Shown piece by piece: positions 621-26,965 of a stretch of 38,048 nt of DNA; position 1 is the first letter of the stretch; every line of letters starts with the position of its first letter. A program made the position numbers and the translations under genes. The notes under the pieces are model-generated. The model saw only the letters and a list, made by a program, of their open reading frames with translations. It searched no databases and was not told the origin of the DNA. The stretch comes from Candidatus Mediterraneibacter norfolkensis (GTDB lineage Bacteria; Bacillota; Clostridia; Lachnospirales; Lachnospiraceae): contig DWUT01000249.1 of NCBI GenBank assembly GCA_019120615.1, positions 1 to 38,048 of the forward strand, given 5' to 3'.

Positions 621-1124
621 ATGGAACAGTTTCTTCAGGTCGGGGTTATCTCATCCACTCACGGAATCCGTGGAGAAGTCAAGGTGTTTCCCACAACAGA
701 TAACGCCGCCCGTTTTAAAGAACTGAAAAACGTGCTGCTTGATACGGGAAAAGAGCGGATCGGACTTGAGATCCAGTCCGTGAAGTTTTTCAAGCAGTTT
801 GTGATCGTGAAATTTAAAGGGATTGACAATATCAACGATATTGAGAGGTATAAGGGCAGAAGTCTTCTTGTTGCAAGAGAGGACGCCGCAGAACTGGGTG
901 AAGATGAATATTATATCGCAGATCTGATCGGAATGGACGTGTTTACGGAGGAAGGGCACTTCGGTGTGCTTCGAGACGTCATGGAGACAGGGGCGAATGA
1001 AGTATATATCGTAGATTCGGACCGTCACGGGGAGGTGCTCATCCCGGCGATACGACAGTGTGTGCTGGAGGTGGATCCGGAGGAGAACAGGATGACGGTG
1101 CGGATCATGGATGGGTTGATATAG
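621..1124 (+). CDS. rimM: 16S rRNA processing protein RimM
   Basis: RimM is a 167-residue assembly factor that binds S19 and the 30S head during maturation. The N-terminal RimM domain starts with VGVISSTHGIRGEVKVFP. The C-terminal PRC-barrel ends with VLIPAIRQCVLEVDPE and MDGLI. AAGGAG lies at a normal distance before the ATG. In nearly all Firmicutes the next gene is trmD; here about 7 kb of foreign-looking DNA separates them. The rimM reading frame itself is intact to its usual C-terminus, so the insertion did not damage it. Confidence 0.95.
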   Translation: MEQFLQVGVISSTHGIRGEVKVFPTTDNAARFKELKNVLLDTGKERIGLEIQSVKFFKQFVIVKFKGIDNINDIERYKGRSLLVAREDAAELGEDEYYIADLIGMDVFTEEGHFGVLRDVMETGANEVYIVDSDRHGEVLIPAIRQCVLEVDPEENRMTVRIMDGLI

Positions 1125-9174: not shown

Positions 9175-9522
9175 ATGAACGAGATCATTAAGAAGATCGA
9201 AGCAGAGCAGTTAAAGGCTGAGGTTCCCCAGTTTAACGTGGGTGATACCGTAAGAGTACACGCAAAGATCAAAGAGGGTAACCGCGAAAGAATCCAGGTT
9301 TTCGAGGGAACAGTCCTGAAGAAACAGGGTGGCGGAGCGAGAGCTACTTTCACAGTAAGAAAGACATCCAACGGAATCGGAGTTGAGAAAACATGGCCGA
9401 TCCACTCTCCGCACGTTGAAAAAGTAGAGGTTGTCCGCAGAGGTAAAGTAAGAAGAGCTAAACTGAACTACTTGAGAAAACGCGTGGGTAAAGCTGCTAA
9501 GGTGAAAGAATTAGTAAAATAA
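9175..9522 (+). CDS. rplS: 50S ribosomal protein L19
   Basis: A 115-residue L19, located at the 30S-50S interface. Family features are clear: [49 protein letters not shown] and a basic tail. AAGGAGG is well placed upstream. It follows trmD as in most bacteria and ends in a strong terminator, closing the first transcription unit. Confidence 0.97.
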
Positions 9523-9530
9523 TGACCATG

Positions 9531-9567
9531 AGAGGGACAATTACAGATCTGTATTTGTCCCTCTTTT
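9531..9567 (+). terminator. Rho-independent terminator after rplS
   Basis: AGAGGGACAA pairs with TTGTCCCTCT around an inner palindrome TACAGATCTGTA, followed by TTTTGC. It lies 9 bases after the rplS stop. Confidence 0.85.
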
Positions 9568-9582
9568 GCTTATGGAGGATAT

Positions 9583-18757: not shown

Positions 18758-18828
18758 ATAGATTGAATAAGGGAAAGGGGATTCCCCTGTCCGATATAAA
18801 GAGAAAAAATGACAAGGAGGAACATGGG

Positions 18829-20430
18829 ATGCGCGGAAAAGAAGAAATCAGGGAAACGATCGCGTCTGGCCAGGCCATACTGGGGATCGAACTGGGCTCT
18901 ACCAGGATCAAGGCGGTGCTCATCGATGTGGACAAGGCGCCTGTGGCTTCGGGAAGTTATGACTGGGAAAACAAATATGTGGACCATATCTGGACCTATG
19001 ACATGGAGGATATCTGGGCAGGACTTCAGGGATGTTACAGGGATCTGGTGAAAAATGTGAAAGAGGAGTACGGGGTAAAACTGACCCGGTTCGCGGCGAT
19101 GGGCGTCAGCGCCATGATGCACGGATATCTGGCATTTGACGAAAACGATGAACTCCTCGTGCCGTTCCGTACATGGCGGAACACGATCACCGGTGAGGCT
19201 TCGGAAAAGCTCTCTGAGCTTTTTGCCTACCATATTCCTCAGCGCTGGAGCATCGCACATCTGTACCAGGCGATCTTAAACGGAGAAGAGCATGTGGATA
19301 AAGTCCGCTTTTTCACTACCCTTTCCGGATATATCCACTGGAAGCTGACCGGAAAGAAAGTGCTGGGAAGCGGAGACGCTGCCGGAATGTTCCCGATCAA
19401 CATCGAGGCGAAAGATTTTGACGCTAGGATGCTGGATCAGTTCGACGAACTTGTGGCGGACAAAGGATATCCGTGGAAGATCCGGGAACTTCTTCCCAAA
19501 GTCCTTCTTGCCGGTCAGGATGCCGGCTGCCTGACAGAAGAAGGGGCAAGACTTCTGGATCCGGACGGAAATCTGGAGGTGGGGATCCCACTGTGTCCGC
19601 CGGAAGGAGATGCAGGGACCGGGATGACGGCGACCAACAGCGTTGCCGTGCGCACCGGAAATGTGTCCGCCGGGACCAGCGTGTTTGCCATGGCTGTGCT
19701 GGAGAAAGATCTGACAAAACCCTACGAGGAGATCGATCTTGTGACAACGCCGTCCGGAGACCTGGTGGCTATGGTGCACTGCAACAACTGTACCTCTGAC
19801 CTGAACGCATGGGTGGGAATCTTCAGAGAGTTTGCGGAAGCCTTCGGCATCGACGTGGATATGAACCGTCTCTTCTCAACTCTGTACAACAAGGCGCTGG
19901 AGGGAGACGAGGACTGCGGCGGACTGCTGGCGTATAACTATTTCTCGGGCGAGCACATTACCGGATTCGACGAAGGCAGGCCTCTTTTCGTCCGCACACC
20001 GGAGAGCCGCTTTAATCTTGCGAACTTTATGCGTGTGAACCTTTATACTTCCCTCGGCGCACTGAAGACCGGGATGGATATCCTGCTCAAAAAGGAGAAT
20101 GTGAAATTGGACCGCATGATGGGACACGGCGGTCTGTTCAAGACAAAGGGCGTGGGTCAGAGGATCCTCGCCGGAGCCATCGATACCCCTGTGTACGTTA
20201 TGGAGACTGCCGGCGAAGGCGGCGCCTGGGGGATCGCGCTTCTGGCGGATTACCTTGTGAGAAGGGAAGAAGGAGAGAACCTGACCGACTATCTTGCAAA
20301 TAAAGTGTTCCACGAGACGAAAGGCACCGGAATGGATCCGGTTCCCGGGGATGTGGAAGGCTATGAGAAATTCATGGAGAGGTATATAAAAGGGCTGGCG
20401 ATCGAGAGGGCGGCAGTGGAGAATCTCTGA
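18829..20430 (+). CDS. FGGY-family carbohydrate kinase, probable L-ribulokinase
   Basis: A 533-residue sugar kinase of the FGGY/actin-like fold. The phosphate-1 motif [17 protein letters not shown] is at about 18-34, the adenosine region [13 protein letters not shown] is in the middle, and [15 protein letters not shown] and [15 protein letters not shown] are near the end. AAGGAGG sits 8 bases before the ATG at 18829; the ORF-track start at 18763 is upstream of this site. Its location after araA suggests it phosphorylates L-ribulose, replacing a classical AraB. Xylulose remains possible. Substrate is inferred from context only. Confidence 0.85.
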
Positions 20431-20465
20431 TCCGGTGGGGGCGAGAATGTCCGCAGGAAGAGACA

Positions 20466-20570
20466 GACTGTTGGCAGGCACGTTTGCACTCGGAAAACAA
20501 CGCAGCGGTACATAGGCGCACAAAGAACGTGCGCCAAGTGCCGGCGTTGTTTTACGGCCTTTCAACAGTC
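20466..20570 (-). repeat. Structured repeat, family 1, copy A
   Basis: On the minus strand this reads as nested stems: GACTGTTG/CAACAGTC outside, a short GGC/GCC stem, AAAACAACGC/GCGTTGTTTT, then GGCGCAC/GTGCGCC with a GTTCTTT loop. The single-stranded words CGGCACTT and TATGT.CCGCT are the same as in copy B at 20787-20918, which lies inverted 216 bases away. Differences between copies fall mostly in paired positions and preserve pairing. No reading frame is supported here. Confidence 0.9.
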
Positions 20571-20786
20571 CATCCCTTCCTGCTGCATTTTCGTGGCCGG
20601 AAGGAGAAGGAATTCTTGGAGAAATGATTTCACGGCCGGAAGGAGAAGAGAATTTCGGGGCTGCTTTGGCTGCGGGAGGAAGGAAAACTCTCTGTGGGAG
20701 CTTTTCGAAATCCAGGGAGCAGCGCCCCTACGGGGCGTGCCTCTCCCGTCCGCTCCCGGAACTACCGCGGTGACTGGAACAACCCG
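20571..20786. other. Gene-free spacer between the two inverted repeats
   Basis: This 216-base stretch has no convincing gene. It holds a direct repeat GGCCGGAAGGAGAAG (20595-20609 and 20634-20648) and a GC-rich hairpin CGCCCC-TAC-GGGGCG enclosed by GGGAGC/GCTCCC. With the flanking inverted copies it forms a unit of about 450 bases that could be a non-autonomous mobile element or a composite structured transcript. Confidence 0.5.
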
Positions 20787-20918
20787 GCCGGAGGGGATAT
20801 GTTGACGAAAGACCGTAAAACGACGCCGGCACTTGGAGCGCGTCTTTTGCGCTCCTATGTGTCCGCTGCGTCGTTTTCCGAGCGAGAGCGGGTCTGCCGT
20901 CAACATATCCCCTCCGGC
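20787..20918 (+). repeat. Structured repeat, family 1, copy B
   Basis: A 21-bp perfect outer stem joins 20787-20807 with 20898-20918 (core GGATATGTTGAC/GTCAACATATCC). Inside are GACC/GGTC, AAAACGACGC (20817-20826)/GCGTCGTTTT (20868-20877), and GGAGCGC (20835-20841)/GCGCTCC (20849-20855) with a 7-base loop. It ends 8 bases beyond the stop codon of the minus-strand deacetylase gene, so it would form the 3' end of that transcript. There is no T-run, so it is not a standard terminator. Confidence 0.92.
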
Positions 20919-20926
20919 GGCCTGTT

Positions 20927-21805
20927 TCACTCCCCCGCCAGATCCGTAAGCGGTTTTATGGTGTATCCCATTTCCTCCCATTTTGTCAGCAGTTCATCCA
21001 GGATCTGCGCGTTGGTGGAGGAGGTACTGTGCAGCAGCACAATGGCGCCGGGATGGATCCGACCGAGGAGCTTGTCGAAGGCTTCTTCCGGGGAAGGCTG
21101 GTCATCCTGGTACCAGTCTACATATGCCAGGCTCCAGAAGAAGGTCTTGTATCCGAGTTGTTGCGCCATTTTCAGATTCTCTTCATTGTATTTCCCCTGA
21201 GGAGGCCGATAGAATTTCGTCATTTCCTGTCCGGTCACGTCCCGATAGGCGTCCTCCACATCTACAAGTTCTTTTTTGAAGGAATCCATGGTTGAGATCT
21301 GGGACATATCCGGGTGATGCCAGGTGTGGTTTCCCACAGTGTGACCTTCTTCCACCATTCTTTTTATCAGTTTCGGTTCAGAATCTATGTATGTTCCAAC
21401 TACAAAAAATGTGGCGGATACGCTGTGCTTTGCAAGGGCGTCCAGAATGGGCTCTGTGTTTCCGTTTTCATAGCCTGCGTCGAAGGTGAGATAGAGGACT
21501 TTCTCGTCAGTGTCTTCCGCATAGTAGGCGTCATATTGGGCCAGTTCGTCAAATGTGGCGTTCCCCACAGGCGTCTGTCCCGCCTCCTGAAAGCTCAGTC
21601 CCCAGTTCCCTTCCGCGGAGACGGGAAGCGCAGGGGAGCTGTAAGAGGAGTGAGAAGAGGTTCCGGAGAGTGCGTCTTCTGCAGCTCCGGCTGCCGTGCC
21701 GAGCAGAAAGGCTCCGGCAAACAGGGCGAGCGTTTTCGCGGCTGTTCTGGTGATAAAAATTCTTTTGAGAGAAGCGGATACTTTTTTGGGAAAATCTTTT
21801 TTCAT
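20927..21805 (-). CDS. pdaA: PdaA-like polysaccharide deacetylase (spore-cortex muramic delta-lactam type)
   Basis: A 292-residue exported NodB-domain protein. A basic N-terminus and membrane/signal segment cover about residues 21-42. The deacetylase domain has LYLTFDAGYENG at about 105-115, GHTVGNHTWHHPD (metal His at about 160 and 164), FYRPPQGKY, FFWSLAYVDW and HPGAIVLLHS. GYENG, VDW and the HPGAI ending match PdaA, which makes muramic delta-lactam in spore cortex. The usual TFDDG is TFDAG here; B. subtilis PdaA also departs from DD at this spot (TFDNG). It is convergent to the kinase gene. The deacetylase call is firm; the cortex role is inferred. Confidence 0.85.
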   Translation of the reverse strand: MKKDFPKKVSASLKRIFITRTAAKTLALFAGAFLLGTAAGAAEDALSGTSSHSSYSSPALPVSAEGNWGLSFQEAGQTPVGNATFDELAQYDAYYAEDTDEKVLYLTFDAGYENGNTEPILDALAKHSVSATFFVVGTYIDSEPKLIKRMVEEGHTVGNHTWHHPDMSQISTMDSFKKELVDVEDAYRDVTGQEMTKFYRPPQGKYNEENLKMAQQLGYKTFFWSLAYVDWYQDDQPSPEEAFDKLLGRIHPGAIVLLHSTSSTNAQILDELLTKWEEMGYTIKPLTDLAGE

Positions 21806-25884: not shown

Positions 25885-25901
25885 TTTTAGAAAATATTTT
25901 A

Positions 25902-25943
25902 AAAAGGTGCCAGGTACTTTTTAAAAAGTACACGGCACCTTTT
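25902..25943. repeat. REP-like long hairpin between aroF and aroB
   Basis: AAAAGGTGCC and GGCACCTTTT flank the 18-base palindrome GTACTTTTTAAAAAGTAC, giving a 42-base near-perfect hairpin with one 2x2 mismatch. On the minus strand it is followed by a T-rich run (CTTTTTAAAATATTTT), so it could attenuate aroB transcription. GGTGCC...GGCACC words resemble palindromic repeats spread by REP-associated Y1 transposases; that link is from memory of such families. Confidence 0.7.
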
Positions 25944-25951
25944 AAAGAAAT

Positions 25952-26965
25952 TTACAGAATCTTTCCTACAACTTCAGCAATTTGCCGTACCTGTTTGAGA
26001 AGTGCATCATATTTCTCCGGTTTCAGGGACTGAGCTCCGTCGCACAACGCACATTCCGGATCGTTGTGGACTTCGATCATGAGCCCGTCAGCGCCGGCAG
26101 CGACAGCGGCTTTTGCCATCGGCTCTACCAGCCACCATTTTCCGCCTGCATGGCTGGGATCTACCATGACAGGAAGATGAGTTTTCTTACGGAGCACGGG
26201 GATGCTCTGAAGATCCAGGGTGTTCCTTGTGAAGGTCTCGAAAGTACGGATCCCTCTCTCGCAGAGGATGACATTCTCATTTCCGGCAGCCATAATATAC
26301 TCTGCGGACATGATCCATTCTTCATAGGTGGCGTTGAGACCGCGCTTGAGAAGGATAGGGCGATCGACCTGACCTAACTGTTTGAGCAGGTCGAAGTTCT
26401 GCATATTGCGGGCGCCGATCTGGATCAGGTCCACTTTCTCGTTGAAGATATCGAGATACTGCGGAGACATGAGCTCTGTCACAATGGGGAGACCGACCTC
26501 CTCTTTTACCGCGCAGAGGATATCCAGTCCCTCCAGCCCGAGTCCCTGGAAAGAGTAGGGGCTGGTCCTGGGTTTGAACGCGCCGCCGCGGAGCAGGTTC
26601 GCTCCGGATTCTTTTGCAGCTTTCGCGATCTCGAGTACCTGCTCGAAAGACTCTACAGAGCAGGGACCTGCGATCAGTCCAAGATGCCCTCCGCCGATCT
26701 TTACACCGGAGACGTCTACTACAGAATCCTCCGGGTGGAAAGCACGGTTGGCAAGCTTATATGGTTCCTGGACATGCATGACTTTGTCAACACAGCTGTC
26801 CACCTCAAACTGGCGCGGATCGATCAGTGTCGTATCTCCGATACAGCCAATGATCGTCATCTCGGTACCGCGGACAACGTGAGTGTCCAGCCCGCGTTTT
26901 TTGACAAGATTTTCCACACGTGTTATATTTTCTTCGGTCGTGTGCGGTTTCAGTACAATGATCAT
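25952..26965 (-). CDS. aroF: 3-deoxy-7-phosphoheptulonate synthase (DAHP synthase, type I-beta)
   Basis: This enzyme condenses phosphoenolpyruvate and erythrose 4-phosphate, the first committed step to aromatic amino acids. The 337-residue form has an N-terminal ferredoxin-like regulatory domain (about 1-65, starting MIIVLKPHTTEENI). The barrel follows with LIAGPCSVES, LRGGAFKPRTSPYSFQG, QIGARNMQNFDLLK, LKRGLNATYEEW and PVMVDPSHAGGK. The N-terminal domain is typically the site of feedback inhibition by an aromatic end product. A good promoter with an inverted repeat at the start site lies upstream. Confidence 0.95.
   Translation of the reverse strand: MIIVLKPHTTEENITRVENLVKKRGLDTHVVRGTEMTIIGCIGDTTLIDPRQFEVDSCVDKVMHVQEPYKLANRAFHPEDSVVDVSGVKIGGGHLGLIAGPCSVESFEQVLEIAKAAKESGANLLRGGAFKPRTSPYSFQGLGLEGLDILCAVKEEVGLPIVTELMSPQYLDIFNEKVDLIQIGARNMQNFDLLKQLGQVDRPILLKRGLNATYEEWIMSAEYIMAAGNENVILCERGIRTFETFTRNTLDLQSIPVLRKKTHLPVMVDPSHAGGKWWLVEPMAKAAVAAGADGLMIEVHNDPECALCDGAQSLKPEKYDALLKQVRQIAEVVGKIL

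Follow-up and report, generated by a model that had tools for sequence, protein, structure and literature searches.

The window, a stretch of 38,048 nucleotides from Candidatus Mediterraneibacter norfolkensis, contains two convergent genes whose 3' ends face each other. One encodes an FGGY-family carbohydrate kinase and ends at 20430. The other encodes a PdaA-like polysaccharide deacetylase and ends at 20927; it matches TIGR02884 at 294.8 bits, just under the cut-off of 298. The gap between them is filled by two long palindromes, copy A on the minus strand and copy B on the plus strand (Table 1). These are the longest two inverted repeats in the window (arms of at least 26 nt, at most 400 nt apart). 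Two further inverted repeats, both without a spacer, lie elsewhere: a 31-bp A+T-rich repeat at 25892-25953, between two minus-strand ORFs, is probably a terminator, and a 26-bp repeat is found at 9522-9573, between plus-strand ORFs.

Table 1. The palindrome pair, its parts, and its neighbouring genes, in window positions.
Feature	Position	Strand	Basis or remark
FGGY-family carbohydrate kinase gene	18763-20430	plus	Pfam PF02782/PF00370; 3' end towards copy A
Copy A, whole palindrome (core and arms)	about 20453-20583	minus	Fold; R1 match 20462-20581(-), 124.5 bits
Copy A, RNA-like conserved part	20462-20574	minus	Consensus structure mapped on
Copy A, P1 inner	20563-20574/20462-20473	minus	Consensus mapping
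Copy A, P2	20555-20560/20476-20479 with 20491-20492	minus	Consensus mapping
Copy A, P3	20544-20552/20495-20503	minus	Consensus mapping
Copy A, P3b	20538-20543/20506-20511	minus	Consensus mapping
Copy A, P4	20528-20535/20515-20522	minus	Consensus mapping
Copy A, P5 GNRA hairpin	20482-20489	minus	Consensus mapping
Spacer between facing 5' ends of copies A and B	20584-20786		203 bp
Degenerate 21-nt direct repeat in spacer	20589-20609, 20628-20648		
G+C-rich hairpin in spacer	about 20700-20750		
Copy B, whole palindrome	20787-20918	plus	R1 match 20789-20909(+), 129.5 bits
Copy B, arms	20787-20814 and 20891-20918	plus	93% complementary
Copy B, RNA-like conserved part	20796-20909	plus	Consensus mapping and strand test
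Copy B, P1 inner	20796-20807/20898-20909	plus	Consensus mapping
Copy B, P2	20810-20815/20892-20895 with 20879-20880	plus	Consensus mapping
Copy B, P3	20818-20826/20868-20876	plus	Consensus mapping
Copy B, P3b	20827-20832/20859-20865	plus	Consensus mapping
Copy B, P4	20835-20842/20848-20855	plus	Consensus mapping
Copy B, P5 hairpin GC-GAGA-GC	20882-20889	plus	Consensus mapping
PdaA-like polysaccharide deacetylase gene	20927-21805	minus	PF01522; 3' end towards copy B

The predicted folding energy is -92.1 kcal/mol (z -10.2) for copy B and -79.2 kcal/mol (z -8.0) for copy A; in neither case did any of 200 shuffled sequences fold equally low. The original prediction held that both copies share a set of nested stems, that changes in these stems are compensated, and that the fold is therefore under selection. 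The two copies do have the same fold. They differ at 11 of the 41 consensus pairs, of which nine are changed on both sides, two are one-sided G-U changes, and none is broken. Compensatory changes can be found in the inner stem (C-G/A-T and A-T/G-C), the 10-bp stem (A-T/G-C), the small hairpin (T-A/C-G), and the next stem (G-C/A-T), with several more in the outer stem. Among the unpaired columns, 10 of the 38 compared differ. Selection on the fold is supported by more than 100 copies.

A covariance model, R1, was built from 18 copies; its E-values are rough. With copy B as the query, 25 matches to its own genome are among the matches listed. R1 gives 23 listed matches there, and 20 of these are full length including A and B, which leaves about 18 further copies. 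In a sample of the genus, 29 of 41 genomes have from one to at least 50 copies among the matches listed, and 12 have none. R1 also matches 61 of 150 Lachnospiraceae genomes, sampled one per genus. In samples of the order and the phylum, 13 of 196 and 4 of 250 genomes match, all of them Lachnospiraceae, and no copies were found in the genomes outside this family in either sample. Because every match falls in one family, these samples also serve as a control for the specificity of R1. Matches in named public genomes come from Mediterraneibacter, from Ruminococcus turbiniformis, and from further Lachnospiraceae or relatives that are uncultured. Culturable carriers, with copies on their contigs, are R. 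turbiniformis CLA-AA-H200, M. glycyrrhizinilyticus An427, and M. catenae SW178. The element is dispersed within genomes, and its observed range is restricted to the family.

No Rfam family matches the element, even when E-values as high as 10 are allowed in the window region, and no description of this palindromic family was found in the open-access literature. Rfam matches in related loci are limited to separate T-box leaders and two weak miRNA matches far below threshold. The T-box leaders belong to ileS (L017:620-833, L073:1597-1851, and others); they reach 57-76 bits with E-values to 1e-14, below the Rfam gathering cut-off. The viral contigs searched gave no match to the element, nor did phages and plasmids searched with copy B. 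An origin from a phage or plasmid was rejected, since nothing similar was found in those collections. Copies A and B belong to an apparently uncatalogued family of small mobile elements present in dozens of Lachnospiraceae genera.

In the consensus fold the outer stem, P1, is followed by an internal loop that has UAA on its 5' side, then by a second stem (P2) and a three-way junction that joins P3/P4 and the small hairpin P5. Conserved features are the internal loops ACUUA and UUAYGU, which separate P3b from P4, and a CU bulge. P5 has a GNRA tetraloop in 102 of 103 distinct sequences from the genus and in 56 of 57 from the family. Within the genome, 28 of the 41 pairs covary; across genera (61 distinct sequences), two-sided changes are seen at 40 of 41. 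Paired cells across genera amount to 94.9%, compared with 63.4% after shuffling and 31-43% with slid partners; the covariation scores are 0.79 and 0.20, respectively, for the alignment and for the comparison. Fitting the sequences to the model favours the structure, but an effect this large is unlikely to be an artefact. Copies are related by descent, so the counts are not independent events, and no tree-based counting was done. The original prediction would have failed without further copies or without covariation above background. Further copies exist in the same genome, in congeners, and in other Lachnospiraceae genera, and the covariation lies far above both the shuffled and the slid controls.

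Mismatches in the arms can reveal on which strand selection acts. If the arms are merely symmetrical, G-T and A-C should be equally frequent; when a single strand is selected for its fold, G-U is tolerated. The arms of 102 copies from the genus and 59 from the family were aligned for this test without a preference for G-U. In the innermost 10 bp, G-T outnumbers A-C by 96 to 10 in the genus and by 26 to 5 in the family, at many positions. In base pairs 11-20 the counts are 28:28 and 19:16, and pairing is still about 87-94% Watson-Crick. Without binning, the distal arms appear to reverse the bias, with 107 G-T and 180 A-C. After binning, the two counts are even in the well-paired part, and A-C exceeds G-T only farther out, in poorly paired stretches with mismatches shared by descent.

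Because G-U lies far above A-C and the loop is GNRA, the functional single strand is the plus strand of copy B, which corresponds to the minus strand of copy A. This strand is most likely RNA, although single-stranded DNA is not formally excluded and there are no expression data; a transcript is inferred only for copies that lie in a leader such as that of ileS. The selected unit is the core together with about 10 bp of stem, or about one helix turn, and the distal arms are strand-neutral. Two criteria for a structured RNA are met: compensatory changes exceed the shuffled and slid controls, and the G-U excess over A-C and the GNRA loop are specific to a single strand.

Evidence for mobility can be found in one genome of another genus, G074, which has about 80 elements among the places listed. 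Their ends are GTAAC(A/C)GTTCAGCCGTGA, giving elements that run GTAAC...GTTAC. Forms of 216 bp contain the core and forms of 41-110 bp lack it. Near-identical copies each have unique flanks, and exact 8-bp flanking duplications are observed in 5 of 13 two-ended elements (L163, L231, L237, L251, L253). The element meets the criteria for a MITE in being short and non-coding, with terminal inverted repeats, multiple copies, and unique flanks; the criterion of target-site duplications is met in G074. In other genera the outer arms differ, and copies of the M. stercoripullorum type have the ends CTGTTCAG...CTGAACA. Among Mediterraneibacter copies, 1 of 22 has an exact 8-bp duplication, which is not significant against 0.7 expected. 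In G110, tandem copies are spaced about 140-190 bp apart; those arranged head to tail (C21:12425-12920 and C59:125283-125568; L148, L150) have spacings of 164-187 bp, as if amplified by slippage or unequal exchange.

GTAA ends with an 8-bp duplication would presumably fit a MITE derived from IS66. IS66 and ISL3 were rejected as sources of the transposase, since none of the four genomes tested has an IS66 transposase (PF03050) and no ISL3 transposase is present in the genomes tested. No long element with the same ends, as an autonomous partner, occurs among the places listed. A possible autonomous copy between two copies about 1 kb apart (G211, G268) was also rejected; judged by eye, its protein resembles a polysaccharide deacetylase and not a transposase.

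The best explanation, to which we assign a probability of about 0.7, is that A and B are MITE-like palindromic elements without a transposase, built in two layers: DNA arms and a conserved RNA core with a three-way junction. The outer layer would consist of long complementary arms that end in terminal inverted repeats. An unidentified transposase would act on these arms in trans and leave the 8-bp duplications that were seen in one genus and are inferred elsewhere. That the transposition is of the DDE type and in trans throughout the family is also an inference. The inner layer, about 100 nt, would comprise the inner part of P1, P2, P3, P4, and the GNRA-capped P5 around the junction. Selection keeps it as a fold of one strand, most likely as RNA produced by read-through. 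The original prediction had named a structured RNA and a hairpin-dependent mobile element among its alternatives. The structured RNA survives as the strand-specific core of the element. Mobility is supported by the target duplications in one genus; dependence on the hairpin has not been demonstrated, because these duplications indicate a DDE-type transposase and the short derivatives without the core have the same duplications.

The fold most probably acts for the element itself, or for a host factor binding the RNA, and not to regulate each neighbouring gene. This is inferred from the strand bias, which is equally strong in copies antisense to the neighbouring gene: G-T to A-C is 49:11 in copies antisense at gene 3' ends, 17:4 in leaders, and 51:6 elsewhere. 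Patchy retention is inferred to favour a function at the level of the element as well. More specifically, the core could be an element-encoded RNA that helps or regulates mobilisation of the element, or protects it, in palindromic elements whose ends differ across the Lachnospiraceae; this remains a tentative suggestion.

Alternately, the RNA may act for the host. A cis-acting UTR RNA could have spread to many operons, where it would control the stability, termination, or translation of neighbouring transcripts. An example that could be read this way is the leader of ileS. In many congeners this leader has a sense copy about 36 nt upstream of the start codon and downstream of the T-box terminator, and intact orthologues keep the fold; their arms differ greatly yet stay complementary, with G-U intermediates. 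A gene 3' end also lies within 100 nt of the element's 3' end 46 times, against 12 times for its 5' end (all placement statistics rest on simple gene calls, and orthologues were not fully removed). However, the ileS copy is missing or decayed in several congeners. The leader is observed with B alone, with an A-B pair, with decayed remnants, or empty (L195), and the copy is absent or decayed in L195, L214; L209, L210, L216, L219, and L223. The original prediction had proposed to look for empty sites, of which L195 is one, and for target duplications, which are exact in G074 and not above chance in Mediterraneibacter. Moreover, neighbouring genes vary widely, the bias is the same in sense and antisense copies, and genomes within one genus have from 0 to at least 50 copies. 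A role in host regulation is therefore doubtful.

The folded strand could instead be DNA. A single-stranded hairpin might be the substrate of a recombinase or an HUH transposase, like REP/RAYT, the ends of IS200/IS605, or attC. Such a hairpin would account for a fold specific to one strand, since G-T beats A-C in DNA too, and for the bulged bases, intergenic sites, and inverted pairs like those of BIMEs. Where neighbouring copies in the window and the genome loci lie less than 800 bp apart, each of the 25 pairs is arranged (-)(+), as in the window. Outside the genus, L137:2163-2286(+) has a diverged core in reverse orientation upstream of the main copy, with AUCAC/GUGAU replacing CGGCAC/GUGUCCG; inverted pairs thus occur there too. 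The DNA hairpin is nevertheless unlikely. Insertion by attC or HUH systems is without target duplication, which does not fit the exact 8-bp duplications and terminal inverted repeats in G074; to our knowledge, HUH transposases and attC recombination do not make these. The third base of the loop is always a purine, as the GNRA rule of RNA demands. The preference for RNA over single-stranded DNA is an inference favoured by this rule and by the target duplications.

The third alternative of the original prediction, a bidirectional 3'-end signal or terminator for both convergent genes, would explain the position of the pair. Convergent gaps make up 32% of the gaps that hold copies and 11% of the others (p = 0.0003), and divergent gaps are underrepresented, at 8% compared with 21% (p = 0.01). 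In the congener with the closest PdaA (G156), the orthologous A-B pair is present with two-sided arm changes, among them an insertion found in each arm. G183 and G152 have the same gene pair and, at the site, only a short terminator-like hairpin. At the window pair, however, no U-tract adjoins the stems and no terminator-like site was found in the outer stem, so the criterion for an intrinsic terminator is not met. Nor was a promoter-like site found there. Separate terminator-like hairpins stand beside several copies, and other copies lie in 5' leaders such as that of ileS. Defining the element as a 3'-end signal is not supported, and this reading is very improbable. If the elements are MITE-like, copies may persist best between convergent genes because insertion would be least harmful there.

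Terminator-like hairpins AAAAGGGGAGCG...CGCTCCCCTTTT lie upstream of the core in L010, L011, L012, L016, and L018, between convergent genes; the element thus often has a stop codon on one side and a separate terminator on the other. Another repeated palindrome, with covarying stems of its own and the conserved loop CAACTCGC..GCTCAGACAAT, was seen at about 715-830(+) of L020 and in L005, L008, L030, L031, L051, L060, L095, and L100. It is often near the first family, and Rfam gave no match to it in the loci scanned from this genome.

That no fold is selected at all, the arms being matched by arm-to-arm correction or fold-back copying with compensation as a by-product, is scarcely credible: more than 10 bp out, the complementary arms show no strand bias and change wholesale between orthologues with conserved flanks, but such processes cannot yield the strand-specific G-U excess in the inner stem, nor the GNRA rule, nor unpaired loops conserved across genera. 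They may well shape the distal arms. For the distal arms only, it is also possible that host flank was copied in inverted orientation at insertion to form the outer stem. This idea comes from the T-box terminator that adjoins copy A at ileS, and the empty sites do not settle it.

Several known families resemble the element. BOX and RUP of Streptococcus pneumoniae are small dispersed intergenic elements whose terminal inverted repeats are paired in the predicted RNA; they are proposed to be mobilised in trans by IS transposases, are thought to be active when co-transcribed, and belong to one species, with reduced frequency in close relatives (PMC3049150). In contrast, the Lachnospiraceae family has one covarying RNA core that spans dozens of genera inside different arms. 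REP and BIME sequences with RAYT transposases are likewise numerous intergenic palindromes in alternating orientations (PMC2817692). Single REPs are far shorter, whereas each Lachnospiraceae copy forms a complete hairpin 130-220 bp long, with 8-bp duplications in G074. Correia or nemis elements of Neisseria are MITE-like and palindromic with inverted-repeat ends, as here; their taxa, ends, and size differ. ERIC or IRU sequences of enterobacteria are imperfect palindromes. They are intergenic, about 127 bp long, and MITE-like (PMC2759123). They occur in other taxa than the Lachnospiraceae element. We know of no description, for ERIC, of a three-way junction, a GNRA hairpin, and a strand bias limited to the core. 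With the structured RNAs in Rfam the element shares a fold supported by covariation, and none of those families matches it. It works like BOX, RUP, and ERIC, the structured MITE-like repeats, but appears to form a family of its own, which ranges much more widely and has a conserved RNA core inside.

It has long been suspected that ERIC, BOX, and REP are important as RNA, but the symmetry of a palindrome masks selection on an RNA fold. The strand bias resolves both layers within one element: about 100 nt are RNA-like, and the remainder behaves like DNA ends. The family is common in a main family of gut bacteria and absent from the RNA catalogue searched. Since orthologous sites are filled, empty, or decayed, both its function and its mobility can be tested directly. 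If the RNA does work for the mobilisation or protection of the element itself, the family would be an RNA-dependent miniature DNA transposon.
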